DNA of 33,753 nucleotides from Alphaproteobacteria bacterium (GTDB taxonomy: Bacteria; Pseudomonadota; Alphaproteobacteria; Rhodobacterales; Rhodobacteraceae): the NCBI GenBank assembly GCA_030431485.1, contig JAUIIR010000047.1, positions 1 to 33,753 of the forward strand. The letters run 5' to 3'. Shown here piece after piece: positions 3,201-26,808 of this stretch; the first letter of the stretch is position 1, and each line of letters opens with the position of its first letter. Under the pieces are notes generated by a model, which was not told the origin of the DNA, did no database searches, and worked only from the letters and a program-made list of their open reading frames with translations. The translations under genes were made by a program, and so were the position numbers.

Positions 3201-3970
3201 GTAAAGCGTTTGGAGCGGCGCTTGGGCTGATGTTCATCATTCTTCTGGCTCAGTTCAACAGCTTCTACAATGCTGTTCTCGTGCTCTTGGCCGTTGTCCT
3301 TTCGACGGCTGGTGTCCTGATAGGCATGCTTGTCATGGACCAGACTTTCAGCATCATTATGACCGGCACCGGGATCGTCGCATTGGCCGGGATCGTGGTG
3401 AACAACAACATTGTTCTGATCGACACGTATCAGGAATACTCGCGCTACATGCCGCGCATAGATGCCATTGTGCGCACCGCCGAGGACCGGATCAGACCTG
3501 TCCTGTTGACGACGATCACCACAATGGCCGGTCTTGCACCAATGATGTTCGGGCTGAGCCTTGATTTCTTTGGTGGCGGCTATTCCATCGACAGCCCAAC
3601 AGCGCTTTGGTGGAAACAATTGGCAACGGCGGTTGTGTTCGGTCTTGGCATTGCAACCGTATTGACGCTTGTTTTCACGCCCTCCATGCTAGCTGCTCGT
3701 GTCTGGTTTACAACCTATGCGCTTTGGCTTTTCCGGCTGATAGCCCGTCTTGGCGGCGGGCGCGCAAGTCAAGCAGGGCGCGATTGGGCTCTGCAACGCG
3801 CCGCGCGAAAGCTGAAATCACCCACTATTCTATGGGATGATGGCGAATCACCTACGGACCCAAGCTACGAAGATGGCACTTCCGGGCCCCCCGGACTGGA
3901 GGATCTCAAGCGGGTTCTACAGCGATCCCAGGCGAATGAAGGTACTCGACCTGTGCGTGCTGCCGAATAA
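206..3970 (+). CDS. RND efflux transporter permease subunit, long variant (1254 aa)
   Basis: Inner-membrane proton-driven exporter of the RND superfamily (AcrB/MexB/CusA fold), working with the adaptor encoded just upstream. The N-terminal helix (about 13-32) is followed by a porter domain, then the TM2-TM6 block (about 338-490), a second porter domain and a C-terminal TM block ending near residue 1180. The TM4 relay segment reads GMLVDGAIVVVE, with a single Asp (402) followed by Gly, where AcrB has Asp-Asp. In TM10 the AcrB lysine position is Asn in the stretch VVNNNIVL. The protein is about 200 residues longer than a standard RND permease. The excess is a hydrophobic insertion at roughly 495-585, which looks like two additional helices plus a basic segment, and a charged tail after 1190. 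The start overlaps the adaptor stop, with a GAAGAGG ribosome site before it. Substrate unknown. No outer-membrane channel gene lies in the window. Confidence 0.93.
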   Translation: MTGIVDWAAERARMVLAFIALSLAIGTYAYVGLPKEGEPDIEIPALFVSTVFPGISAADSETLLVKPMETELADLDGLKSMSGTAAEGYAGVALEFEFGWDKTQVLADVRDAMNKAQSKFPSGAEQYSINEINFSEFPIVIVNLTGPVPERTMARVAKDLQDRLETLDSVLEAGIAGNRDEMLEVIIDPLKLESYNVTASELISVVQNNNQLIAAGELRSDQGSFAVKIPSSFDDQRDVYDLPVKVNGDRVVTLGDLATINLTFEDREGTARFNGEKTLALQVVKRKGFNLIDTADAVKAAVAEAEAKWPAELQAAVTVGTSNDQSRIVDSMVKQLEGSVLTAIALVMIVVLAALGLRAALLVGFAIPTSFLLCFVFLTIMGVSISNIVMFGLILAVGMLVDGAIVVVEYADKRISEGSGPMHAYVEAAKRMFWPVVSSTATTLCAFLPMLFWPGVPGEFMGMLPVTLIFVLSASLVVALIYLPVMGGVTGRFSRMLDRAAQGLRANTPWLLRAALVPVVLGVLFLGALMLLDPAFLFPPVADGVAAHVPGIVLFLVGSVLASIVLDAASIHWKRKRIEGRRRRTVFGYFIKFIAGNPIMPIVAGAAVLAFVFSVFTYFGENNNGVEFFVESEPEQAIVYVRARGNLSLEEKDALVMRAEDIVLAHPGVKNAFSFAGEGGLNTDASGAAVPKDTIGQVQLETIPWEDRADRPDLDGDLVLEELTNQLQTIPGVEIEILSQNRGPASGKPVHLRLKGDDWDTLLTSTAIARETFEATAGLTLIEDTLPLPGIDWQIDVDVEKAGRYGANVAVVGAMVQLVTRGILLDTMRVDSSDEEIEIRVRLPEEDRYLSTLDTLRVRTPDGLVPLSNFITRKPVAKLAEINRVDQKRHFDVKADVVPGLFKLVASGSEDDVLTMLREREDGPIEAENGTRYAIYGNADATIASVTAALDDGARIVPVNPNERIAELTKWLETEPLPGIEWEWTGDQEEQAESQAFLGKAFGAALGLMFIILLAQFNSFYNAVLVLLAVVLSTAGVLIGMLVMDQTFSIIMTGTGIVALAGIVVNNNIVLIDTYQEYSRYMPRIDAIVRTAEDRIRPVLLTTITTMAGLAPMMFGLSLDFFGGGYSIDSPTALWWKQLATAVVFGLGIATVLTLVFTPSMLAARVWFTTYALWLFRLIARLGGGRASQAGRDWALQRAARKLKSPTILWDDGESPTDPSYEDGTSGPPGLEDLKRVLQRSQANEGTRPVRAAE

Positions 3971-4110
3971 TGTGGCAGTACCGTTGAGCATCCTTCGCCC
4001 ATTTTAGCAGAAGTGAGCGATTGTTGCGCATTTGTGAACGCAAAACCCCGAAAGCTTGGAGATCGTGGCTTTTTTGTGTAGTTGGATAAGGCTGCTACGT
4101 AGGAGGTTTT

Positions 4111-4269
4111 ATGACGTGGGATAGCTGGCGTATCTTTTTCGGTGGTGGGACAACGACGTCTGCGTCGTCCGTTCCAGAAATTGATGCGAGCAGTGGCGCA
4201 CTTGCGCTCGCTGTGGTCGCTGCAGCAATGTTGTTGGCCTGGGAAATCCGTCGTCGCAAGCAAGCGTGA
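4111..4269 (+). CDS. VPEID-CTERM sorting-domain protein (52 aa)
   Basis: A tiny membrane protein that is the probable substrate of the neighbouring exosortase E/protease. After a 20-residue Gly/Thr/Ser-rich N-terminus come the signature VPEID (21-25), a hydrophobic helix (about 29-44) and a basic end RRRKQA. This three-part layout is the sorting signal of the VPEID-CTERM family, a relative of PEP-CTERM, in which the exosortase is thought to cut at the motif. The start is well defined: a perfect AGGAGG at 4101-4106 precedes the ATG, and an in-frame stop at 4087-4089 excludes a longer protein. There is no N-terminal signal peptide, which is odd for an exosortase substrate. The gene is convergent with xrtE and closed by a strong terminator. 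Seen: motif, helix, basic tail, RBS. Known: pairing of VPEID-CTERM with exosortase E. Inferred: processing here. It is short enough to be missed by gene callers. Confidence 0.88.
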   Translation: MTWDSWRIFFGGGTTTSASSVPEIDASSGALALAVVAAAMLLAWEIRRRKQA

Positions 4270-4288
4270 TGGACCCCCTGTACAGATG

Positions 4289-4318
4289 AACATCCGGCGT
4301 TCGCGCCGGATGTTTTTT
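4289..4318 (+). terminator. Intrinsic terminator of the VPEID-CTERM gene
   Basis: A perfect 11-bp stem (4289-4299 with 4304-4314) closes on a UUCG loop and runs into a tract of six T on the plus strand (4313-4318). It lies 20 bases after the VPEID-CTERM stop. On the minus strand no T tract follows, so it should end the small gene's transcript and protect xrtE from antisense read-through rather than terminate xrtE itself. Confidence 0.92.
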
Positions 4319-4334
4319 GATGCCCGATGCTTTC

Positions 4335-5912
4335 TCAGATCAGGGACCACTGACGTGTTGCCAATGCCGCAGCCGCAATCAGCGCATTAGCAACGGCATG
4401 CGCCACAATTGCATCAAAGACCCTGACCCGCCGGAGCAACACGGCTGCAAAGATCAGCCCGGCCACTGCAGCCGCTATTGGGCGTGAATGAAGTGCGGCA
4501 AAGCCAGCTGTGGTCACAAGTATGGCGAGACCCCGCCGTATCAGGCTGCCATCGTCAATCAGGCTGAACAGGTAACCCCGGAAGAACAATTCCTCGACCA
4601 GAGGCACCAGAACAGCGGTGCCAATCACCCTCAGAACAACCCAAATCGTCAATCCGAAGGCACCAAATCCGGCGAGCGAGGCGTAGGGTTCGGCCGGTTC
4701 TGCGGTGATGATCCATCCCAGGCCGACAACAGTCCCTGTCCCGATGGCAATCAAATCGAAATCCCGTGTCAACGCGAGGATCGGCCTGCGGAATATCCAA
4801 ACCGCAACTCCCATCGCCGCAACTTGGACTCCGTACCAGACTTCGGGGGTTTGCGAAAATGTGTGCACAAACAGCCCAGACAACATGAAAGCTAAGAACG
4901 GCACGATAAATGCGGCGGCACGATCATGCGTCAGTGGAAGATGGTCCTTCGCACGGGTGGACTTTGGTGTGCTGCTGAGACCCGGCAGCACATTCACAAT
5001 TGTCAGAATCAACAACGCCAAGAGTGTGAAGGAGAGCCAGCCTGCAAAGCTGTGAAATCCATTCACTGCCAAGTCGGGCGAGATGTAGGTTCCAATCAGG
5101 ATCAGAACGCTGATACGGATGACGTTGAGAATGAAGCTGAGCAAAAGTGCTGCTGGCCAGACAATCAACCAAAAGCGTCCCATGCGGAGATCATCTTTCA
5201 TCATCAAAGCGTAGATCGCCATGAAAGCCGTGGTCAGCGCCAAGCCTTCGATCCCTGAGCAAGACTCGGCCACCTCGACAAAGAAGTCCTGAATACCAAT
5301 GGTCTGGACGTCTAGGTTGAGAAAGACATCGTTGCCTAGGATCGCCAAGACTATGGCAACGCTGAAGAACGTCGCAAGCTGAAGGCTTTCGAACCAATTC
5401 CATGCCAACCCAATGAGCCAAGCCATAGACGGGATAAGCAGTGCGATTGCGATGGTTGGCACCAAAAGGCGTGCATGGTCTTTGAAAAGCGCGCGCCAAT
5501 CCGAGCTTGGCATCAGCCATAGCGCAGCCCCCACGAGCGCTATTGAGCCACCGAGTGCAAGGGCGAACAAAAAGAACGCTGCAAACTCGACCAGCTGATC
5601 TTGCGACAGAAGCAACGTTGGTGCTGCAATCATTCCGAGTCCGGTAATATGCAGAACGCCCCAACCCCGAGCCAACGGGCCGGGTGTTTCGGATCTTTCA
5701 ACGAAACTTTGCCGCAGCATAGGTTTGAAGAACAGTAAGAGCGCGAGGCCTGCGGCGAGACAAAGCCCAAGGACCATGCCCAGACGAATGCCGCGACAGA
5801 CGAAAAAGAGATCGGTTTGACGGCATTCAAATGCACTGAACACCTGATACAGCGCCACGATCGCAATCGCTTCGACCAAAAGAAGCACCTGAGACAGGAT
5901 CAATCTCGACAT
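4335..5912 (-). CDS. xrtE: Exosortase E/protease, VPEID-CTERM system (XrtE)
   Basis: A polytopic inner-membrane fusion enzyme of 525 residues. Residues about 150-310 form the exosortase domain, with the cysteine-transpeptidase-like triad visible as Cys218 (in SCSGIEG), Arg266 (in LNVIRIS) and His287 (in NGFHSFAGW). Residues about 335-525 form a CPBP (CAAX-type/Abi) intramembrane metalloprotease with Glu440-Glu441 and Arg445 (EELFFR), His475 (FAALH) and His505/Asn509 (HAVAN). The first about 140 residues are additional helices. This architecture is the one named exosortase E/protease in the VPEID-CTERM system. The exosortase half is expected to cleave VPEID-CTERM proteins, and such a protein is encoded in convergent orientation next door. 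The start ATG has only a weak ribosome site. The role of the protease half is unknown; it may remove the leftover C-terminal helix, but that is inference. Confidence 0.95.
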   Translation of the reverse strand: MSRLILSQVLLLVEAIAIVALYQVFSAFECRQTDLFFVCRGIRLGMVLGLCLAAGLALLLFFKPMLRQSFVERSETPGPLARGWGVLHITGLGMIAAPTLLLSQDQLVEFAAFFLFALALGGSIALVGAALWLMPSSDWRALFKDHARLLVPTIAIALLIPSMAWLIGLAWNWFESLQLATFFSVAIVLAILGNDVFLNLDVQTIGIQDFFVEVAESCSGIEGLALTTAFMAIYALMMKDDLRMGRFWLIVWPAALLLSFILNVIRISVLILIGTYISPDLAVNGFHSFAGWLSFTLLALLILTIVNVLPGLSSTPKSTRAKDHLPLTHDRAAAFIVPFLAFMLSGLFVHTFSQTPEVWYGVQVAAMGVAVWIFRRPILALTRDFDLIAIGTGTVVGLGWIITAEPAEPYASLAGFGAFGLTIWVVLRVIGTAVLVPLVEELFFRGYLFSLIDDGSLIRRGLAILVTTAGFAALHSRPIAAAVAGLIFAAVLLRRVRVFDAIVAHAVANALIAAAALATRQWSLI

Positions 5913-6009
5913 CGCTACACTGTGCTCATCAACGTTAGAACGCGCAAATACTGATCAATTCAACTGGCAGTAATATGACCCGGATGTGATTATTCGAGGC
6001 AGACCTGTG

Positions 6010-7824
6010 TCACGCGGCGGCATCTTCTTGCATCTGGCGGTTCCAAAGTGTGGCGTAACGACCATGTTTTGAAAGCAGGCTGTCGTGCGTGCCCTCTTCG
6101 ACAACCTGGCCGTTTTCGAGAACTACAATTCGGTGCGCATCAGCGATGGTGGACAAACGGTGCGCGATGGTGATTACGGTACGGCCTTCTCCCGCTCGTT
6201 TGAGCGCCCCTTGGATTGACGCCTCAGTCTCGGAGTCAAGCGCCGACGTGGCCTCGTCAAGGATCAGGATAGGTGGGTTCTTGAGCAATGTTCGCGCAAT
6301 GCCGACACGCTGCTTTTCTCCACCGGAAAGTTTGAGACCGCGCTCGCCGACCATCGTGTCATAGCCTTCGGGCAGCGACAGGATGAAGTCATGAATTTGG
6401 GCGGCCCTGGCTGCCGCGATGATATCTTCTTCCGAGGCGTCGGCGCGGCCATAGGCAATGTTGTAACGGATCGAGTCGTTGAACAACACGGTATCCTGGG
6501 GCACGACACCGATCGCCTCATGCAGGCTGTCTTGGGTGACGTCCCGTACATCTTGGCCGTCGATCTGTACGGACCCATCCAGCACATCGTAAAAACGGAA
6601 CAGCAAGCGACCGATGGTCGATTTGCCTGAACCGGACGGACCCACGAGCGCAACATTCTCTCCGGATTTCACATCCAGCGAAACACCTTTGAGGATCGGG
6701 CGCGCGGGATCATAGCCAAACTTAACGTTTTCAAAACGCACCTCGCCCTGCGAAACCTGTACGTCAGGCGCGCCGGGTTTGTCGGAGACCTCTTGCGGCT
6801 GCTCCAACAAGTCGAACATTTCGCCCATATCAACCAGCGCCTGCCGGATTTCGCGATACACAGTGCCCAGGAAGTTCAGCGGCATGGTGATTTGGATCAT
6901 GTACGCGTTGACCATGACGAAGTCACCGACGGTGATCGTCCCGTTTTGCACGCCAAGAGCGGCCATCACCATCACCACGACTAGTCCGGTTGTGATGATC
7001 AGGCTTTGGCCGAAATTCAGGAAGGCAAGCGACGTGGCCGTTTTGATCGCAGCGCCTTCATAGGCCTGCATGGAAGTGTCGTAGCGCTCTGCCTCACGGG
7101 CCTCGGCCCCGAAGTACTTGACGGTTTCGAAGTTGAGCAGGCTGTCGATGGCCTTTTGGTTGGCATCCGTGTCCTGTTCGTTCATCTCACGGCGCAGCCG
7201 CACCCGCCATTCGGTGACCTTAAAGGTAAACCAGACGTAAATAGCGATCGTGACTAGAACGACTGCCATGTAGCGGATATCGAGAAGCCAGAGCAGCACC
7301 AGCGAAACCAACAGCAATTCGAGGATGAGTGGGCCAACACTGAACAGCATGAAACGAAGCAGAAAGTCGACACCCTTGACCCCGCGCTCGATGATGCGGC
7401 TAAGGCCACCGGTCTTGCGTGTGATGTGGTAGCGCATCGACAGGCGGTGGATGTGCGTGAAGGTCTCCAGCGCCAGTGAACGAAGTGCGCGCTGACCCAC
7501 GCGCGCGAAGACGCCATCTCGCAATTGCTGGAATCCGACATTACCCAGCCGGGCGAACCCATAGGCGAGGGTCAGCCCGACCCCGCCAAGCATTAGGTCC
7601 GATGCCTGTCCCGACAACGCATCAACCGCTTTACCAAAAAGCAGCGGTGCCAGCATGTTAACAATCTTCGCCAGCACCAGACACACCAGCGCGATCACAA
7701 CACGATGCTTGACCCATGGCTTGTCATCCGGCCAAAGGTAGGGCCCGACCTTGCGAATGGTCCGCAAACCGGAACGGCGTTCATTGGCTACCAAGTCGGC
7801 ATCTGAAGTGGTATCAGCGGGCAT
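6010..7824 (-). CDS. ABC transporter, ATP-binding/permease, Atm1 (HMT1) type
   Basis: Homodimeric ABC exporter half-transporter of 604 residues. The transmembrane domain (about 35-330) carries the hallmark coupling stretch NFETVKYFGAEAREAERYD (about 231-249), typical of the Atm1/ABCB7/HMT1 subgroup. The nucleotide-binding domain (about 360-590) has Walker A GPSGSGKST (395-403), signature LSGGEKQR (499-506), Walker B ILILDE (519-524) and the switch histidine 555. Bacterial Atm1 proteins such as that of Novosphingobium export glutathione conjugates and metal-glutathione complexes; the NFGQ at 270-273 falls where Atm1 helices contact glutathione, though this was judged by eye. It is transcribed in the same direction as the HerA-like gene (63-base gap) and xrtE (97-base gap), but no functional link is evident. 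Family certain, substrate inferred. Confidence 0.93.
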   Translation of the reverse strand: MPADTTSDADLVANERRSGLRTIRKVGPYLWPDDKPWVKHRVVIALVCLVLAKIVNMLAPLLFGKAVDALSGQASDLMLGGVGLTLAYGFARLGNVGFQQLRDGVFARVGQRALRSLALETFTHIHRLSMRYHITRKTGGLSRIIERGVKGVDFLLRFMLFSVGPLILELLLVSLVLLWLLDIRYMAVVLVTIAIYVWFTFKVTEWRVRLRREMNEQDTDANQKAIDSLLNFETVKYFGAEAREAERYDTSMQAYEGAAIKTATSLAFLNFGQSLIITTGLVVVMVMAALGVQNGTITVGDFVMVNAYMIQITMPLNFLGTVYREIRQALVDMGEMFDLLEQPQEVSDKPGAPDVQVSQGEVRFENVKFGYDPARPILKGVSLDVKSGENVALVGPSGSGKSTIGRLLFRFYDVLDGSVQIDGQDVRDVTQDSLHEAIGVVPQDTVLFNDSIRYNIAYGRADASEEDIIAAARAAQIHDFILSLPEGYDTMVGERGLKLSGGEKQRVGIARTLLKNPPILILDEATSALDSETEASIQGALKRAGEGRTVITIAHRLSTIADAHRIVVLENGQVVEEGTHDSLLSKHGRYATLWNRQMQEDAAA

Positions 7825-7887
7825 GTGGATGTCTTTCGTCTGGTTCGACGCTTTGACTTACCCTGCCCAGCCCCGAAGGGCCAGTGC

Positions 7888-9447
7888 TCAGCGCGCCTTG
7901 AAAAGCCCGCCAAGTATGCCGCGCACAATGCGCCGCCCGGTTGTGCCTTTCAGTTCCTTGACGACAACACTGGCAATAGCCTCTCCTAAGCTTTCGTCTT
8001 TGCGGCTAGAACGGCTCTTGCGTGTCGGTTGAGACGTCGATCGACCGACGCGTGTACCGCTGTAACGCCGACCTGCATTGTATTCGCGCATCGCGGCATC
8101 AAGATCGGCTTCCTTTTGTTCTGCCGCTTCAGCAGCGGCAGCCGCATCTTCTGCCCGCTTGGCAAGTATTTCATACGCAGATTGCCGGTCCAACCGTGCC
8201 GTGTATTTGTCGTTTAGGTCGCTGGCGCCCATGACACCACCGCGTTCTGCCGGTGTGATTGGGCCCAACTGGGACGACGGCGGGCGGATCAGTGTGCGCT
8301 CGACCATCCCGGGAATACCCTTGCGTTCGAGCATTGAGGTCACGGCTTCGCCCACGCCGACCTCTCGAATGGCTTGTTCCGTGTCGAACGCCGGGTTCTC
8401 GCGGTATGTCTCAGCCGCCATCCGCAATGCTTTCCGATCCCGCGCGGTGAAAGCGCGTAGCGCATGCTGCACCCGGTTGCCGAGCTGTCCGAGAATATCC
8501 TCAGGAATGTCATCCGGATTCTGAGTGATGAAATAGACGCCAACACCCTTGGACCGGATAAGTCGGGCAACCTGCTCGACCTTGTCCACCAAAGCTTTCG
8601 GTGCGTCGTCGAAAAGCAAATGTGCCTCGTCAAAAAAGAACACCAGCTTGGGCTTTTCCGGATCGCCGACCTCGGGCAATTCTTCGAAGAGTTCCGAGAG
8701 CAACCATAGCAGAAAAGTAGCGTAAAGACGCGGAGACCCCATCAGCTTGTCAGCCGCCAGAATGTTGACTTGTCCCTGCCCGTTCGCGTCGGTGCGCATG
8801 ATGTCGCGCAGCTCCAAGGCCGGCTCGCCAAAGAAATTGGCAGCGCCCTGATTTTCAAGAACCAACAAGCGCCGCTGGATTGCGCCTACGGACTGGACGG
8901 AAATGTTGCCATATCGCAAAGCGACGGTATCACGGTTCTCGCCCAGCCAGACCAGCATGGCCTGCAGGTCCTTCAGATCCAGAAGTGGTAGGCCTTCTTC
9001 GTCAGCCACGCGAAACGCGATGTTCAACACACCTTCCTGCGCCTCGGACAGCTCTAACAGACGCGAAATCAGCAACGGCCCCATCTCGGCTACGGTGGTT
9101 CGTATCGGGTGGCCCTGATCACCGAACAGATCCCAGAATGTCACTGGAAACGCCCGGTAAGCGTAGTCATCAAAGCCGATGGTTTGTGCACGTTCTGAAA
9201 AAGGCTGATGCAGCTTGAAATCCGAGCTTCCAGCTTTTGACAATCCGGAAAGATCACCTTTCACGTCGGCCATGAAGACCGGAACACCTTGAGCGGAGAA
9301 GCCCTCTGCCAGAATTTGCAAAGTGACGGTTTTTCCTGTGCCGGTGGCGCCCGCTACGAGCCCATGCCTGTTGGCGTAGTCCAACCGCAGCCATTGCTTG
9401 ACCCCGTAGTTTTCACCACCACCCCCGACAAAGACACCGTTATCCAT
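7888..9447 (-). CDS. HerA-like helicase-domain ATPase, DUF853 (YjgR) family
   Basis: Cytosolic P-loop ATPase of 519 residues in the HerA/FtsK clade. Walker A is GATGTGKT (33-40), Walker B is [12 protein letters not shown] (269-280), and an [14 protein letters not shown] stretch follows at 306-319, all characteristic of the DUF853 (E. coli YjgR) family. The C-terminal part (about 425-500) is an Ala/Glu-rich likely helix and then an Arg/Ser-rich basic segment, plausible for nucleic-acid contact. The biochemical role of the family is not settled; the HerA relationship suggests DNA translocation or helicase activity, but these proteins are not the archaeal HerA partners of NurA, and no nuclease gene is adjacent. 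The GGGGACGTGT before the ATG provides a ribosome site. The upstream gap holds its promoter and, on the opposite strand, candidate small RNAs. Confidence 0.9.
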
Positions 9448-9540
9448 ACACGTCCCCCAACTCCATCTTCAGAAACCGAACATACAATCTTAACCTTTTG
9501 CCGCCAGTATGTTTTTCGCCCGAAGGTTTGGATGTTTCGC

Positions 9541-9599
9541 ACCAAGTCGGGCAATCCTCCCTGTTGGACTGGCCACGCTCCAGAGCGTGGCCCTTTTTT
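9541..9599 (+). ncRNA. Candidate small RNA with a UCCUCC anti-Shine-Dalgarno loop
   Basis: The segment can fold as two consecutive hairpins: AGTC/GACT and CAA/TTG pairings (9545-9548 with 9567-9570, 9552-9554 with 9564-9566) expose a loop TCCTCCCTG (9555-9563), immediately followed by a strong terminator hairpin. An exposed UCCUCC next to a terminator is the design of alphaproteobacterial small RNAs of the CcsR/alpha-r14 kind, which pair with ribosome-binding sites. The 5' end is not defined; I see no clear promoter, and an alternative fold pairs GGG 9549-9551 with CCC 9559-9561 and would hide the motif. Sequence and terminator are seen; function is inferred from family design. Confidence 0.45.
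9571..9599 (+). terminator. Strong intrinsic terminator with no upstream protein gene
   Basis: A perfect 9-bp stem GGCCACGCT/AGCGTGGCC (9571-9579 and 9584-9592) with a four-base loop is followed by six T (9594-9599) on the plus strand. The nearest upstream gene is on the other strand, so the transcript that ends here must start inside the gap. Confidence 0.85.
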
Positions 9600-9625
9600 G
9601 TGAAATCATGTATTTAATTTGCCTG

Positions 9626-9654
9626 TTGACGCCTTGGATTTCATTTCGTAGCGT
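9626..9654 (+). promoter_or_regulatory. Candidate sigma-70-type promoter for a small RNA
   Basis: TTGACG at 9626-9631 is a near-ideal -35 box. Seventeen bases on, TAGCGT at 9649-9654 is a weak -10 box, acceptable for alphaproteobacteria, where the -10 is poorly conserved. A start near 9661 would give a transcript of about 70 bases ending at the second orphan terminator. Confidence 0.4.
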
Positions 9655-9660
9655 CCAGTC

Positions 9661-9730
9661 AATAATAGTCGGCCGGTCCGACAGGGAGCAAAAAAGGGAA
9701 GGTGCGGCGTCGCGTCTTCCCTTTTACTTT
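9661..9730 (+). ncRNA. Candidate second small RNA (about 70 nt)
   Basis: Between the candidate promoter and the terminator at 9692-9725 lies a short hairpin GTCGG-loop-CCGAC (9668-9672 and 9678-9682), then a purine-rich single strand ACAGGGAGCAAAA. The eight bases ACAGGGAG (9681-9688) are perfectly complementary to CTCCCTGT (9557-9564) in the loop of the upstream candidate RNA, so the two could pair with each other or fold together if co-transcribed. The strand is uncertain because the terminator has a longer T tract on the minus strand. No protein is encoded with any credibility. Confidence 0.35.
9692..9725. terminator. Long terminator hairpin, probably bidirectional
   Basis: A perfect 10-bp stem AAAAGGGAAG/CTTCCCTTTT (9692-9701 and 9716-9725) continues inward through about five further pairs to a GCGT loop. 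The plus strand gives CCCTTTTACTTT; the minus strand gives CCCTTTTTT. No annotated gene feeds it from either side at close range. Confidence 0.75.
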
Positions 9731-9908
9731 CAAGGACCTGCGCCTCAAAGCTCATGCATCGCGCGAAGCAGTCGCTGAGATGCCATCATTATTCATAAGC
9801 GCAAGAATCCGCCGCCACGCAGGTCACATTTTCGCGTTTTGGCCTGACACTTTGCACAACCCATGATAACGCAACCACAAACATGACCGATGCTTCGGAG
9901 AGGACTTT

Positions 9909-10532
9909 ATGACCAAACCCCTTTTGCTTCTCACCACGATTGCCAGCCTCGCCCTTGGCGGCGCTGTGATGGCGCAGGACACAGATGCGCCCGAGAGCAC
10001 TGAAGCGCCAGCACCGAATGCCGACTTGTCGGTTCTGGATACGGGCGAACCTGTGGTCGAGCAAACCGCAGACGACAATACATATGTAAAAAACACACAC
10101 GGCGACTGGGCGATTCAATGTCTCCGGGTTCAGGAAGGGCCCGAGCCGTGCCAGATGTATCAACTTTTGCGTGATCAGAATGGCGGCAGCGTGGCCGAAG
10201 TCAGCATTTTTCGTCTGAACAACGGCGGCCAGGTTGCTGCGGGCGGGACATTTGTCGTGCCGCTTGAGACACTGCTGACCGAAAAGCTGAATGTGCGTGT
10301 CGATTCCGGGCAGGCCAAGCGCTACGATTTTTCGTTCTGTACGCAGGTTGGATGCTATGCCCGTGTCGGGTTCACAGCAGAAGACGTGGCGGCGTTTCGT
10401 CGGGGCAATGTCGCCAATGTGACCATTGTCCCCGCGCTCGCCCCTGACCAGCGCGTGGTTGTCAGCATGTCATTGACTGGCTTCACCGCAGCCTATGACG
10501 AAATCACTGAACTGGAACAGCAACGACAGTAA
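9909..10532 (+). CDS. Invasion-associated locus B (IalB) family periplasmic protein
   Basis: A secreted protein of 207 residues with a clear Sec signal peptide (LLLLTTIASLALGGAVMA, cut before Gln-Asp) and an acidic, Ala/Pro-rich linker to about residue 55. The mature domain has the IalB-family pattern GDWAIQC (residue 65 region), a second Cys in EPCQMYQ, the SIFRL strand and the CTQVGCYAR pair, giving four cysteines likely to form disulfides. The family is named after a Bartonella factor linked to red-cell invasion, but it is widespread in free-living alphaproteobacteria, where its role is unknown; no virulence role should be inferred. A GAGAGGA ribosome site lies seven bases before the ATG. 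It stands alone, convergent with lpxB, sharing a bidirectional terminator. Confidence 0.88.
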   Translation: MTKPLLLLTTIASLALGGAVMAQDTDAPESTEAPAPNADLSVLDTGEPVVEQTADDNTYVKNTHGDWAIQCLRVQEGPEPCQMYQLLRDQNGGSVAEVSIFRLNNGGQVAAGGTFVVPLETLLTEKLNVRVDSGQAKRYDFSFCTQVGCYARVGFTAEDVAAFRRGNVANVTIVPALAPDQRVVVSMSLTGFTAAYDEITELEQQRQ

Positions 10533-10554
10533 TCTGTTCGACAGGTAAACCAAA

Positions 10555-10583
10555 AAGGGGCCGTACCGTGTGATCCGGCCCTT
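10555..10583. terminator. Bidirectional terminator between ialB-family gene and lpxB
   Basis: An imperfect stem of about eight pairs centred on GGGCCG/CGGCCC (10556-10563 and 10576-10583) has T-rich flanks on both strands: TTGTTTCATTTT on plus and five T on minus. It sits between convergent genes and can close both the IalB-family transcript and the long lipid A/envelope operon. Confidence 0.7.
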
Positions 10584-10586
10584 GTT

Positions 10587-11729
10587 TCATTTTAGACCAT
10601 CAAGAACTGCGAGTGCTGCGCGTTCGCCTGGGGGCATGCCGCCTTTCCCCAACCGTTCCATCGTCAGGTCCATCGCCGCCCGTTGTTGATCTGGCGCGTT
10701 TAAGACCTGGGACACGGCCTGTGCGATCGGTCCCGGTCTGCAGTTTGTACCGATGAATTCAGGAATAGCGCGGGTCTCGGACACCAGATTGACCAAGGTC
10801 ACCGTATCCACGCGAAGCATGCGCCCAATGATCTGACGGGATAGCCAGTTCATGTCATAAGCGATCACCATGGGCGTGCGCGCCGCTGCCAATTCAAGCG
10901 ACACGGTGCCCGACGCAGCCAGCGCAACATCTGCTGCCGCAAAAGCAGCCCGCTTGACGGCAAGTCCGTCTTTTGCCGGGTTCACAAGGATGGGTTTGAT
11001 TGGCCAAGTGTTGGCCGCCTCTGCAACAGCCGTTGCGACATTTGGCGCAGCAGGCAGAACGAATTGCATTCGGGGGTGCTCTGAGCGCAGGCGGGACACG
11101 ACCTCTGAGAAGATCGGCAGCAAACGTTTGATCTCGCTTCGCCGTGATCCGGGCAGGATCAATGCCAAAGGCGCCTCGCCAATGTCGTATTGGCGGCGGA
11201 AGCCCGCCAGCTCATTGCGCGCCGCAACCGGATCTGTGACCACCGGATGCCCAACAAAATCACAGCGCATACCCGCAGCTTCCATGTAGGGCGGCTCAAA
11301 TGGCAAAAGGGCGAGCACCTGGTCAATATGTGCGGACATCTTTTTCGCGCGTCCGGGACGCCATGCCCAAACCGTTGGCGCGACGTAGTGCACCGTTCTG
11401 ATTTCGCTCTGCGCCTTGACCAACTTGGCGACCCGGAGGCTGAATTCAGGCAAGTCTATTGTGATCAGCACATCGGGTCTTGCAGCAATCACCGCGTCGG
11501 CCGTTTGCCGGATACGCGCTTTCAATGCCCGGTAATGCGACAGGATTTCGGTGATCCCCATGATCGAGATCTCATCCATCGGAAAGAGGCTTGGCAAACC
11601 TTCTGCAATCATTCTGTCGCCGCCGATGCCCTCAAACTGAACGTCGGCCACATGTTTTCGCAGGCCCGCCATCAGTGCCGCACCCAGCTTGTCACCCGAG
11701 GCTTCACCAGCGATGACAAAAACCCGCAT
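10587..11729 (-). CDS. lpxB: Lipid-A-disaccharide synthase LpxB
   Basis: Membrane-associated glycosyltransferase (GT19) that joins UDP-2,3-diacylglucosamine to lipid X to give the lipid A disaccharide. The N-terminus MRVFVIAGEASGDKLGA is the conserved LpxB beginning, and APTVWAWRPGR (about 112-122) and ILPGSRRSEI (about 190) are family motifs; 380 residues is the normal length. The frame is open further upstream, but the start at 11729 is chosen because it aligns with the family and because its ATG overlaps the lpxI stop by one base (TGATG), indicating coupling. It is the last gene of the envelope operon and ends at a terminator shared with the convergent neighbour. Confidence 0.96.
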   Translation of the reverse strand: MRVFVIAGEASGDKLGAALMAGLRKHVADVQFEGIGGDRMIAEGLPSLFPMDEISIMGITEILSHYRALKARIRQTADAVIAARPDVLITIDLPEFSLRVAKLVKAQSEIRTVHYVAPTVWAWRPGRAKKMSAHIDQVLALLPFEPPYMEAAGMRCDFVGHPVVTDPVAARNELAGFRRQYDIGEAPLALILPGSRRSEIKRLLPIFSEVVSRLRSEHPRMQFVLPAAPNVATAVAEAANTWPIKPILVNPAKDGLAVKRAAFAAADVALAASGTVSLELAAARTPMVIAYDMNWLSRQIIGRMLRVDTVTLVNLVSETRAIPEFIGTNCRPGPIAQAVSQVLNAPDQQRAAMDLTMERLGKGGMPPGERAALAVLDGLK

Positions 11730-12631
11730 CAGGCGCTCTTTTCCCGAACCCAGAGGAAAAGACCCAGCGCGTCGCATCGCGCAAGGGTTTTTGCCCGATC
11801 AACGATCATCACGCCCCCCGCCTCAATTACGATGCCTGCCAATCCCGCAGCGGCTACCGCATCTGGCGTGTTGGCTCCGATCACAGGGAGGTCAGCACGA
11901 CGGTCTTGTCCCGGCTTCGGTGCTTTGAACAGGATACCTCCATCCGCTGCCGAAGAGCCTCCGGTCAGCCAATCAGTGGCGTCTCCCAACAGCCCGCCGA
12001 ACATATCGCTGGCTGCATTGATGGGGTTGGACAGGAAATCTCCGCCACCCGCAGCACGATCACGTGCCAGGCGGGTCAGCATCGCGTCGGTGCCGGCTGC
12101 ATCTTCGCGCGCCAGCACGCTATCGCCGCGCACCACGCAGGCCTGACCTGCATCCCGCGCGCCCATCGCTGCAACGGTGCGTTCGCCCAAACGCGCTTCA
12201 ACCGTATTCTGTGGCGCATAGGTTGTTAGGGTCAACACACCTTCTGCCGGAACAAGGTCAGGAACAAGATCATGGACCGCCACGATCTGCAGACCCTCTT
12301 CTTCAAAGAGTTGCATGACAATCCGAAGCGCACCGTCGTCGCCGGAGGTTAGAGCGGTCTGCAAACGCGGCACAAGCGGCGCGGTTTTTGGATCAAGGCG
12401 GGAAGCATCAATCGGTGGGCGCCGGATGGCACCACAGAGGCACACCTGCGCAACGCCCCGAGATTTGAGCGTGTCGAACAGAGTGCCCAGCGTTTCGAGG
12501 TGGAAAGTCAGATCAGCCTTCAAACCGTCCGGTTCAAACCCATTTAACACGCAGACCAAGGGCCGCTGACTTTGAGCCTCCGCCACAATACGTGGCAAGC
12601 GCCCCTGCCCGCAGATCAGCGCCAGTGTCAT
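11729..12631 (-). CDS. lpxI: UDP-2,3-diacylglucosamine diphosphatase LpxI (DUF1009)
   Basis: Cytosolic enzyme that hydrolyses UDP-2,3-diacylglucosamine to lipid X, the step before LpxB. The start MTLALICGQGRLPRIVAEA matches the N-terminal domain of the LpxI family first characterised in Caulobacter. The C-terminal domain contains RDAGQACVVRGDSVLAREDAAGT split over about 155-180, DLPVIGANT (about 246) and AGIVIEAGGVMIVD. LpxI replaces LpxH in most alphaproteobacteria and cleaves the pyrophosphate differently. It sits three bases after lpxA and overlaps lpxB, exactly where the pathway order predicts it. Length of 300 is slightly above the usual about 270-280. No anomalies seen. Confidence 0.94.
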   Translation of the reverse strand: MTLALICGQGRLPRIVAEAQSQRPLVCVLNGFEPDGLKADLTFHLETLGTLFDTLKSRGVAQVCLCGAIRRPPIDASRLDPKTAPLVPRLQTALTSGDDGALRIVMQLFEEEGLQIVAVHDLVPDLVPAEGVLTLTTYAPQNTVEARLGERTVAAMGARDAGQACVVRGDSVLAREDAAGTDAMLTRLARDRAAGGGDFLSNPINAASDMFGGLLGDATDWLTGGSSAADGGILFKAPKPGQDRRADLPVIGANTPDAVAAAGLAGIVIEAGGVMIVDRAKTLARCDALGLFLWVREKSA

Positions 12632-12634
12632 CGC

Positions 12635-13420
12635 TCAGCCCGGTGTCAGGAAGGACCTGTCAGTCTCTCCCAGTATAAAGTCTACAATGTGCTGCACGTA
12701 CGGGCTGTCACTTTCTTCACCAAGACGCTTGGCCCGCTCCTGGAAAGCCCCTTCACCCTGTGCAAGCATCTGGAACGCCGCCCGCAGCGCAGTGATGTCC
12801 GCACGGCTGACGCCCTTTCGCTTGAGGCCAACTAGGTTCAGCCCGTCCAGACGGCCGCGTTCAGCCTGAACCAAACCGTAAGGGATCACGTCATTTGTCA
12901 CCATCGTAACCGCCCCGATGATCGCGCCGCGCCCGATACGAACGAATTGGTGCACACCCGAAAGGCCACCCACGATCACGTCGTCTTCGAGGATGCAGTG
13001 TCCGGCCAAAGCAGCGCTGTTGACCACGATCACGCGGTTGCCGATCTGCACGTCATGGGCGACATGGCACCCCGCCATGAAGAGATTATCGTCGCCCACG
13101 CGGGTCACACCGCCACCGCCCTTGGTGCCGGTATTCATCGTGACATGTTCACGGATGCGGTTGCGCGCACCGATGATCAGACAGGTCTTCTCGCCGTCGA
13201 ACTTGAGGTCTTGCGGAATCTCACCGATCACGGCGAACGAGAAGATTTCGCTTCCTTCTCCAATCGAGGTCTGGCCGGTCACAACCACATGGCTTTTCAA
13301 TGTCACGTTGTCGGCGAGAACGACCTCGGGGCCAACGTGGCAAAAAGGGCCGATCTCGCAGCCATCACCGATCTGCGCGCCCTCTTCGATCACGGCACTG
13401 GGGTGGATACGGGCTGTCAC
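12635..13420 (-). CDS. lpxA: Acyl-ACP--UDP-N-acetylglucosamine O-acyltransferase LpxA
   Basis: Catalyses the first step of lipid A synthesis, transfer of a 3-hydroxyacyl chain from ACP to UDP-GlcNAc. The N-terminal two thirds is a left-handed beta-helix of hexapeptide repeats ([24 protein letters not shown] and so on), and the catalytic histidine is His122 in [11 protein letters not shown]. The helical C-terminal domain follows from about residue 185. I choose the GTG start at 13420, which overlaps the fabZ stop (GTGA) and gives the canonical TARIHPSAV beginning and 261 residues. An ATG 11 codons upstream (13453) lies inside fabZ and would add a non-family leader. Coupled to fabZ upstream and lpxI downstream. 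Confidence 0.93.
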
Positions 13421-25761: not shown

Positions 25762-26808
25762 ATGGGACTTTTCATTCTAAGGCGTGTCGGCGTTATGATC
25801 CTCACGGGTCTATGCCTGACATTCCTCGTCTTTACCTTAACCAATCTCTATCCAAACCTGGAAAAACTCGCGAAAACGCAGGGCAACTTCCGGATGAGCG
25901 ACGCCGAAGTTACGAGCTACCTCGAACGAAACGGCTATCTTCAACCGATGATCGTGAAATACGGGGAATGGTTGGGGGTTGTGCCGTCCTATCGGCACGA
26001 GAACTCGGATGGGACGATCCAGGGCCGATGCATCCAACCGGGCCAATCGCCCGAAGAGGCACCGCAGTTCTGCGGCGTTTTGCAAGGGTATTGGGGCTTT
26101 TCGACAGTCTTCAAGGATGAGGTCGGCAGCATCATCGCAACGCGACTTAGCCTGACGGGCAAGCTGATGCTTTGGGTCATGCTGCTCATGGTGCCATCTG
26201 CTTTGATACTGGGGGTTCTGTCGGGGATGCGTGAAGGGTCGAAAATGGACCGCACCCTGTCTACGATTTCCATCACCACAACAGCGACCCCGGAGTATGT
26301 CTCGGGCGTGATCCTGATCGCCGTTTTCGCCTCCTCTACCGTTGGTCTCAAATGGTTCAAAGGCACCGCCACAAGCGCGATGGAAAGCGCGAATTTCGAA
26401 AACTTCTTTCTGCCGGTCCTCACCATCTCGCTTTATGGCATGGGCTATATTGCGCGTATGACGCGGGCATCAATGGCCGAAGTGATGACCGCGCAGTACA
26501 TCCGGACCGCACGCCTGAAAGGCGTCAGCTTCGGCAATATCGTGGTCAAGCACGCCCTTCGGAACGCTCTTATCGCACCCTTCACCGTGATCATGCTGCA
26601 GTTCCCGTGGCTGCTGAACGGCGTGGTCATCGTCGAGACACTTTTCAACTACAAAGGCTTCGGCTGGACCCTCGTCCAGGCGGCCAGCAACAATGACATC
26701 GAGTTGCTGCTCGGCGTGTCCGTCGTTTCGGTTTTTGTCGTGCTGGTAACTCAGCTGATTTCGGATATCGGCTACGTCTATCTTAACCCACGCATCAGCG
26801 TGTCCTGA
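25762..26808 (+). CDS. ABC transporter permease (DppB-like)
   Basis: First inner-membrane channel subunit of the importer, 348 residues. The start MGLFILRRVGVMILTGLCLTF is the classic DppB/OppB N-terminus and first helix, which decides the ATG at 25762 (AGGGTG ahead). The frame is open further left, but that would translate the hexamer repeat into Lys-Gln repeats. A long periplasmic loop (about 32-120) contains two Cys (90 and 104) that could form a disulfide. The cytoplasmic coupling (EAA) loop is YIRTARLKGVSFGNIVVKHA (246-265), continuing LRNALIAP. The next gene begins 17 bases after its stop. Confidence 0.93.
   Translation: MGLFILRRVGVMILTGLCLTFLVFTLTNLYPNLEKLAKTQGNFRMSDAEVTSYLERNGYLQPMIVKYGEWLGVVPSYRHENSDGTIQGRCIQPGQSPEEAPQFCGVLQGYWGFSTVFKDEVGSIIATRLSLTGKLMLWVMLLMVPSALILGVLSGMREGSKMDRTLSTISITTTATPEYVSGVILIAVFASSTVGLKWFKGTATSAMESANFENFFLPVLTISLYGMGYIARMTRASMAEVMTAQYIRTARLKGVSFGNIVVKHALRNALIAPFTVIMLQFPWLLNGVVIVETLFNYKGFGWTLVQAASNNDIELLLGVSVVSVFVVLVTQLISDIGYVYLNPRISVS

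Follow-up and report, generated by a model that had tools for sequence, protein, structure and literature searches.

A fused exosortase E/protease and a 52-residue VPEID-CTERM substrate without a recognisable signal peptide in the Rhodobacterales

What does an exosortase fused to a second membrane protease do when the one target found for it is a protein of 52 residues without a recognisable signal peptide? The locus that raises this question lies in a stretch of 33,753 nucleotides from an alphaproteobacterium of the family Rhodobacteraceae (the whole of this stretch is called the window below), in which xrtE and a tiny VPEID-CTERM gene converge. The XrtE/VPEID-CTERM pair is already known as an NCBIfam system; the signal-less substrate is the variant here. 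The action of exosortases is hard to test amid dozens of large targets. A single 52-residue target is of a size suited to direct mass spectrometry, and some close relatives have the two-gene unit while others lack it, so that cut site, acceptor group and the part played by the fused second protease come within reach of direct tests.

An exosortase/protease and its tiny neighbour

The pair and its surroundings comprise the following features:

4335–5912, minus strand: xrtE, exosortase E/protease of 525 amino acids (open reading frame; TIGR04162 and Pfam matches; conserved residues; AlphaFold2 model)
4989–5759, minus strand: exosortase (EpsH) domain with Cys218, Arg266 and His287 (PF09721 match at these coordinates)
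4338–4940, minus strand: CPBP/Rce1-like glutamic intramembrane protease domain, residues 325–525 (E440, E441, R445, H475, H505, N509)
4111–4269, plus strand: VPEID-CTERM substrate gene, 52 amino acids, without recognisable signal peptide (TIGR04161; single possible start; own frame closed upstream)
4100–4106, plus strand: Shine-Dalgarno sequence TAGGAGG before the substrate gene, a full match to AGGAGG (sequence)
4288–4318, plus strand: stem-loop followed by a T-run, between the convergent genes (fold and shuffle tests)
3971–4110, plus strand: upstream region with blocks shared across the genus, GTTGTT...GTGAAC and CTTGG...TTTTGTGTA (alignment of genus loci)

XrtE scores 508.9 bits against NCBIfam TIGR04162 (cut-off 150), its residues 9–525 aligning to positions 4–516 of 516, and matches both the Exosortase_EpsH and the Rce1-like domains of Pfam. 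The CPBP domain reaches 51.4 bits with PF02517 (cut-off 22.4) and contains the EExxxR, H and HxxxN motifs; residues 333–525 also exceed the cut-off of TIGR03008, a CAAX-protease relative (94.7 vs 81.05 bits). The active-site Cys, Arg and His of the exosortase superfamily are all present, as C218, R266 and H287. A sequence-only reading of this DNA had described these residues, together with Glu440-Glu441-xxx-Arg445, His475 and His505-xxx-Asn509, as intact motifs, and all of them sit at the positions claimed. The pair that it had proposed is likewise real, the neighbouring protein scoring 63.5 bits with TIGR04161 (cut-off 33) over its C-terminal residues 21–50 of 52, with the substrate gene placed at 4111–4269.

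Conservation was assessed at 100 loci with XrtE above 150 bits to a profile of our own, of which 93 remained after removal of those at least 98% alike. The catalytic Cys218 is found at 92 of these 93 loci and Arg266 and His287 at all of them, and the protease residues are nearly as constant (Glu440, Glu441 and Arg445 at 91, His505 at 90, His475 and Asn509 at 89). The misses trace to the broken genes of L093 and L159, the fragmentary L160 and L154, a Henriciella outlier that has Tyr in place of the catalytic Cys218 and lacks VPEID. A pair of cysteines in the N-terminal region is also well kept (C30 in 88/93, C39 in 90/93).

The two broken genes, at L093 (G123, 6375–7973) and L159 (1137–2725), are interrupted in the CPBP half, by an in-frame stop and by overlapping frames, respectively. 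They were scored as misses because the longer piece alone was aligned; the CPBP motifs are readable in the second pieces. Such interruptions may reflect decay, assembly error or a natural split, and two breaks in 93 suggest that some systems of this kind may be decaying. The broken xrtE of L093 adjoins a signal-less substrate.

The AlphaFold2 model of XrtE has a mean pLDDT of 89.7 and a pTM of 0.74. Searches of the whole model against PDB structures returned no useful match (best Foldseek E value 0.93; VIA likewise), the CPBP domain alone gave only weak matches, and phmmer against PDB sequences found nothing at E ≤ 1. At the other end of the chain, Ile is the last residue of XrtE in 43 of 45 cases, with a consensus ending of WALI (window 4335–4340).

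The neighbouring gene, convergent to xrtE, encodes MTWDSWRIFFGGGTTTSASSVPEIDASSGALALAVVAAAMLLAWEIRRRKQA, a cysteine-free protein that consists of a head (MTWDSWRIFF), a linker (GGGTTTSASS), VPEID, a transmembrane helix and a basic tail (RRRK). The stem-loop behind it is the probable terminator of the substrate gene: the segment 4280–4325 folds at −23.8 kcal/mol (z −5.7) and none of 200 shuffles was equally stable, while the number of stem-loop/T-run sites found is 3 vs 2.3 expected in shuffles. The blocks upstream, aligned over ten distinct genus loci of which one is cut by a contig edge, are a possible candidate promoter or operator, perhaps regulated; a scan of 3900–6100 for the sigma-70 consensus found none. 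An Rfam scan gave nothing near the pair, and elsewhere in the window it matched the Cis52 sRNA (RF02647) at 26383–26564 on the minus strand (97.6 bits, gathering score 56).

Pairing across genomes and history of the locus

The window's genome (4.66 Mb in 164 contigs, 94.28% complete) contains one match to the exosortase family, which is XrtE, and one VPEID-CTERM protein above the cut-off, the next best scoring 13.9 bits (E 0.4). At the DNA level, the pattern encoding VPEID occurs once in the 4.66 Mb and in none of 100 shuffles of the window. The whole-genome search for further VPEID C-termini that had been suggested yielded no second match over the cut-off, and the enzyme has a single apparent target in this genome, with a second one possible in the missing DNA at 94.28% completeness. 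The sequence-only reading was right, then, to assign the enzyme a single substrate here; for the family as a whole this view has exceptions. At L139 two tiny genes stand in tandem. At L078 (G380, 8797–13379) the system has a many-target form, in which several full-size proteins with C-terminal tags of the VPEV type lie near a relative of XrtE. The substrate profile gives four matches of at least 24.7 bits around this xrtE; the likely starts put three of the proteins at about 187, 210 and 236 residues, and the fourth match falls in a longer frame.

Across the order, XrtE is found in 45 of 390 genomes (E ≤ 1e-20), VPEID-CTERM in 44 (E ≤ 0.001) and both in 42, a co-occurrence with a Fisher p of 2.7e-50 that ignores kinship. 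In the three genomes with XrtE only (G273, G304 and G380), a profile built from the 44 picks out substrate-like genes at the xrtE locus; two genomes (G178, G354) have the substrate without XrtE, and in two others (G263, G312) enzyme and substrate lie on different contigs. Outside the window's family the XrtE system looks rare: a class-wide draw found XrtE in 4 of 385 genomes, three of them of that family, and the tiny substrate of the fourth (G440), 55 residues long, carries a signal peptide.

The window's pair is flanked by an RND permease gene and an ABC transporter gene, with a HerA-like gene also nearby. Seven of 17 genus members have no XrtE, and in four of these (G053, G082, G254 and G300) the RND and ABC genes adjoin directly at a clean junction, with no remnant of the pair (no blastn match of at least 60 bases at E ≤ 1e-5) and no VPEID-CTERM match. 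A recent insertion of the pair in the genus was considered and ruled out, since RND and/or ABC relatives are found near the pair in other genera too: both at L084, L086, L088, L091, L097, L114, L115 and L146, the ABC relative alone at L095, and the RND relative alone at L093, L118, L122 and L123. These neighbours make loss likelier than gain, the position of the locus is probably old and the pair was probably lost as a unit.

It had also been said that no function is known for this system. We found no paper on VPEID-CTERM among the open-access papers searched, where the main text of PMC8355900 does not use the term VPEID, and prior publication on signal-less targets elsewhere is possible; the pair is nevertheless a named NCBIfam system and is annotated as such on plasmids. 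Two of the four plasmids that we opened carry polysaccharide genes close to xrtE, as is seen with other exosortases.

Substrates without a recognisable signal peptide

The window's substrate gene has one possible start, preceded by a perfect AGGAGG, and a stop closes its own frame upstream. The 20 residues before VPEID form an aromatic head and a Gly/Ser/Thr linker with no hydrophobic core, and by hydropathy and start codons the 52-residue protein carries no N-terminal signal peptide of the Sec type, a point absent from the sequence-only reading. Most relatives have a signal-like N-terminus followed by a short mature part. The substrate was present in the DNA examined at 83 of the 93 loci and absent at 10; leaving out L154, 82 were labelled, with hydropathy and start codons in place of a trained predictor. 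The signal peptide is missing in 13 and present in 69, including L130, where it is only a short stretch after a GTG. The maximal 9-residue hydropathy before VPEID does not exceed 1.29 in the 13 and is at least 1.49 in the 69, a narrow gap. A stop closes the gene's own frame within 150 nt upstream at 12 of the 13 signal-less loci, the thirteenth (L104) being at a contig edge, and eight of the 13 have a single start codon.

Upstream frames other than the gene's own are mostly bare. The stricter statement, that they are bare of signal-like stretches altogether, was ruled out: ahead of the gene, the window's +2 frame contains a run of hydrophobic residues (KD9 2.49) that enters the gene out of frame, and off-frame stretches with KD9 of 1.67–1.77 reach the start at L112 and L134. 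We take the stretch in the window as chance because the same frame gives only 1.68, 1.16 and 1.08 at L111–L113.

In a tree of XrtE made with a quick method (92 sequences, the fragment L160 left out), the 13 signal-less loci make up three clades, each with full support. One is the window's genus together with Marivita lacus (L113), the second is Roseovarius-like (L093, L118, L122 and L123) and the third Natronohydrobacter-like (L117, L120, L121 and L134). The fewest signal changes on this tree are three, a count that is blind to gain versus loss. A single clade for all 13, a group defined by the trait in advance of the tree, is rejected by the AU test (p 0.0003), and so is a grouping of the Marivita and Roseovarius clades (p 0.019), which was named after seeing the tree. 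Within the genus, XrtE occurs in 10 of 17 genomes and the substrate is signal-less in all ten, three of which have a tiny gene identical letter for letter to those of L111–L113. Loss of the signal peptide probably happened at the existing locus. According to the consulted part of PMC3237569, a signal peptide of one form or another is always present in PEP-CTERM proteins; if the window's target truly has none, that published statement is broken in at least three lineages.

The mature part stays when the signal goes. Where the signal is missing, the protein opens at once with an aromatic head resembling the stretch found behind the signal in relatives, for example SYSWWDSWFNWGSG after the signal at L115 and MWWDSWRIFFGGG at the signal-less L104, L111 and L113. 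VPEID is preceded by 20–27 residues at the 13 signal-less loci, by 7–59 (median 29.5) at 38 of the 41 signal-bearing convergent loci and by 3–26 (median 12) at 25 loci of the upstream type, where the tiny gene precedes xrtE on the same strand. These mature lengths are rough, as the crude rule for signal cleavage found no site in three of the 41 (L094, L105 and L124), cut too early in several (e.g. L088, L102, L115 and L131) and too late at L185, where three residues are left. L078, with its full-size proteins, and L154 are left out of these cargo statistics. Tryptophan makes up 10.8% of mature residues in signal-less forms and 9.5% in signal-bearing convergent ones, and is missing (0%) in the upstream type. 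The N-tails of the 13 signal-less forms contain 0–2 Lys/Arg residues vs 0–5 in the 38 signal-bearing convergent ones (p 0.026 uncorrected, a modest difference); so few charges would ease unaided transfer. The tiny gene is under constraint, with small numbers: over ten distinct genus sequences pN/pS is about 0.08 in VPEI plus helix and 0.31 in the first 13 codons, the latter falling to 0.10 in the seven sequences with the commonest head.

A proposed peptide-maturation module and its rivals

The reading that we favour, and hold to be rather probable, is a dedicated two-gene module for peptide maturation made up of XrtE and the 52-residue precursor. Presence, intactness, pairing, joint absence, constraint and the want of a recognisable signal in three lineages are observed; from these we infer every reaction step. 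The precursor would enter the inner membrane unaided by a Sec signal peptide, its N-tail of 20-odd residues facing outwards and the RRRK tail staying on the inner side. The exosortase domain (Cys218-Arg266-His287) would then cleave at VPEID from the outer side and either free a peptide of about 24 residues, aromatic head and flexible linker included, or pass it on to an acceptor. Least certain of all, the CPBP domain of the same chain may act on the same substrate and remove or degrade the left-over helix. What speaks for such a two-step cut, as the sequence-only reading had put it, is the conservation of both active sites, and it may be taken as a prediction from sequence.

For comparison we draw on parts of the papers cited here. 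A precedent for insertion is the Pf3 coat protein, which is small, spans the membrane once and has its N-tail translocated by YidC independently of Sec (PMC9360617); the likeness is one of route only, as Pf3 is not a sorting target. The myxosortase MrtX and the MrtJ/JDVT-CTERM system (PMC11980579) also employ a CPBP protease in C-terminal sorting and a two-gene unit of enzyme and target. There, however, the CPBP protein is itself the sorting enzyme, and MrtX cuts its target, whereas in the window it is fused to an exosortase; an invariant Cys also marks the tag in those systems (PMC11980579), and no Cys occurs in the target of the window. The archaeosortase ArtA, an exosortase relative and the best experimental precedent among the systems compared, differs in being archaeal and in acting on the S-layer glycoprotein and other large targets; cleavage of its targets is coupled to lipid synthesis genes and needs them (PMC7157517). 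With MrtX cutting its target and ArtA cleavage needing lipid synthesis genes, each half of XrtE has a precedent. ArtA is not known to carry a CPBP fusion.

Closer to the window, the exosortase/PEP-CTERM systems (PMC3237569; the CrtB paper, PMC12188702) share the C-terminal motif, helix, basic cluster and membrane enzyme. In species with such systems the targets often number twenty or more and bear signal peptides, and there are links to polysaccharide, whereas the window has one 52-residue precursor and no polysaccharide gene adjacent. The NCBIfam XrtE/VPEID-CTERM system (TIGR04162/TIGR04161), compared by the names and scores of its entries only, is alike in that both scores are far above the cut-offs, the genes are adjacent and the target is single here; what sets the window's substrate apart, as far as names and scores show, is the want of a recognisable signal peptide.

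One may tentatively, and with more doubt than confidence, extend the module to the family and see XrtE as mainly a peptide-maturation machine and not a protein sorter. It would make one very short surface peptide in most XrtE-bearing Rhodobacterales, from a precursor that has shed its signal at least three times because the target's own helix suffices for export, and in some lineages the peptide would seat a giant thioester-type adhesin.

The giant protein comes into view through gene order. At 83 loci, the tiny gene is convergent to xrtE in 54, upstream on the same strand in 26, downstream in 2 and divergent in 1, and a giant protein adjoins the upstream-type tiny gene at 23 loci (phmmer from one example). 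All seven giant proteins scanned exceed the SdrD_B cut-off and match Big_9 (six of them over its cut-off), two match the thioester domain TED (one over the cut-off), and their inspected N-termini show no obvious signal peptide. One Cys, one Gln and a C-terminal CxC are invariant among 23 aligned C-termini; the Cys and Gln are what a thioester would need, a thioester-like feature by sequence, and the protein may be a putative thioester-type adhesin. Examples are L110:3095–5980, L076:1045–5904 and L148:9627–12218, with a tiny neighbour of the VPEIS type.

It is on this protein that another explanation turns, which we regard as unlikely: the tiny product would anchor or cap a partner at the cell surface, namely the adjacent giant SdrD_B protein in the upstream type and a replaced or other partner in the window's lineage. 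The giant C-terminal domain occurs in 26 of 390 genomes, among them 18 of the 20 with an upstream or detached tiny gene, and the giant and tiny genes remain neighbours at L069, L072 and L080, where xrtE lies elsewhere; both findings agree with a partnership, as does the SdrD_B match in all seven scanned proteins. Yet the domain is absent from all 26 genomes of the convergent type in the draw, among them the window's (the named convergent locus L148 does carry the giant protein), and eight of the 26 giant-domain genomes lack XrtE and VPEID altogether, with no CTERM-like small gene visible by eye on the same strand within 1.5 kb after the giant protein. A giant SdrD_B partner in the window's own genome was ruled out, as the model that matches 26 of 390 genomes has no match there at E ≤ 10.

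Ordinary dedicated sorting, in which XrtE anchors a tiny surface protein in the PEP-CTERM manner and the signal peptide is unusual or mis-started, is in our view quite unlikely. It would be natural for a family in which 69 of 82 labelled relatives have a plain signal peptide (the short stretch at L130 apart), and it would agree with the relevant part of PMC3237569, where every PEP-CTERM protein has a signal of some form. Against it stand the one possible start and closed frame of the window, the single starts at eight of the 13 signal-less loci, and the hydropathy maxima of at most 1.29 in the 13 against at least 1.49 in the 69.

We consider it very unlikely that the product is a small secreted antimicrobial or signal peptide from which the CPBP half protects the producer. 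The tryptophan content of both convergent forms (10.8% and 9.5%) and the fast change of the mature part between lineages are suggestive of one, and the CPBP fold also serves in bacteriocin immunity. The mature parts nonetheless differ so widely, with Gly-Asn repeats, His-rich and short Pro/Cys types among them, that they are unlikely to have a killing or signalling activity in common, the RND, ABC and HerA-like neighbours of the window's pair include no obvious receptor or immunity gene, and the CPBP half retains its protease residues.

Least credible is regulated intramembrane proteolysis with the released helix or basic tail as the useful product inside the cell, which the low pN/pS of VPEI plus helix, the best conserved part, would fit, since a recognition signal would show the same conservation and the signal-less forms retain the aromatic outer head.
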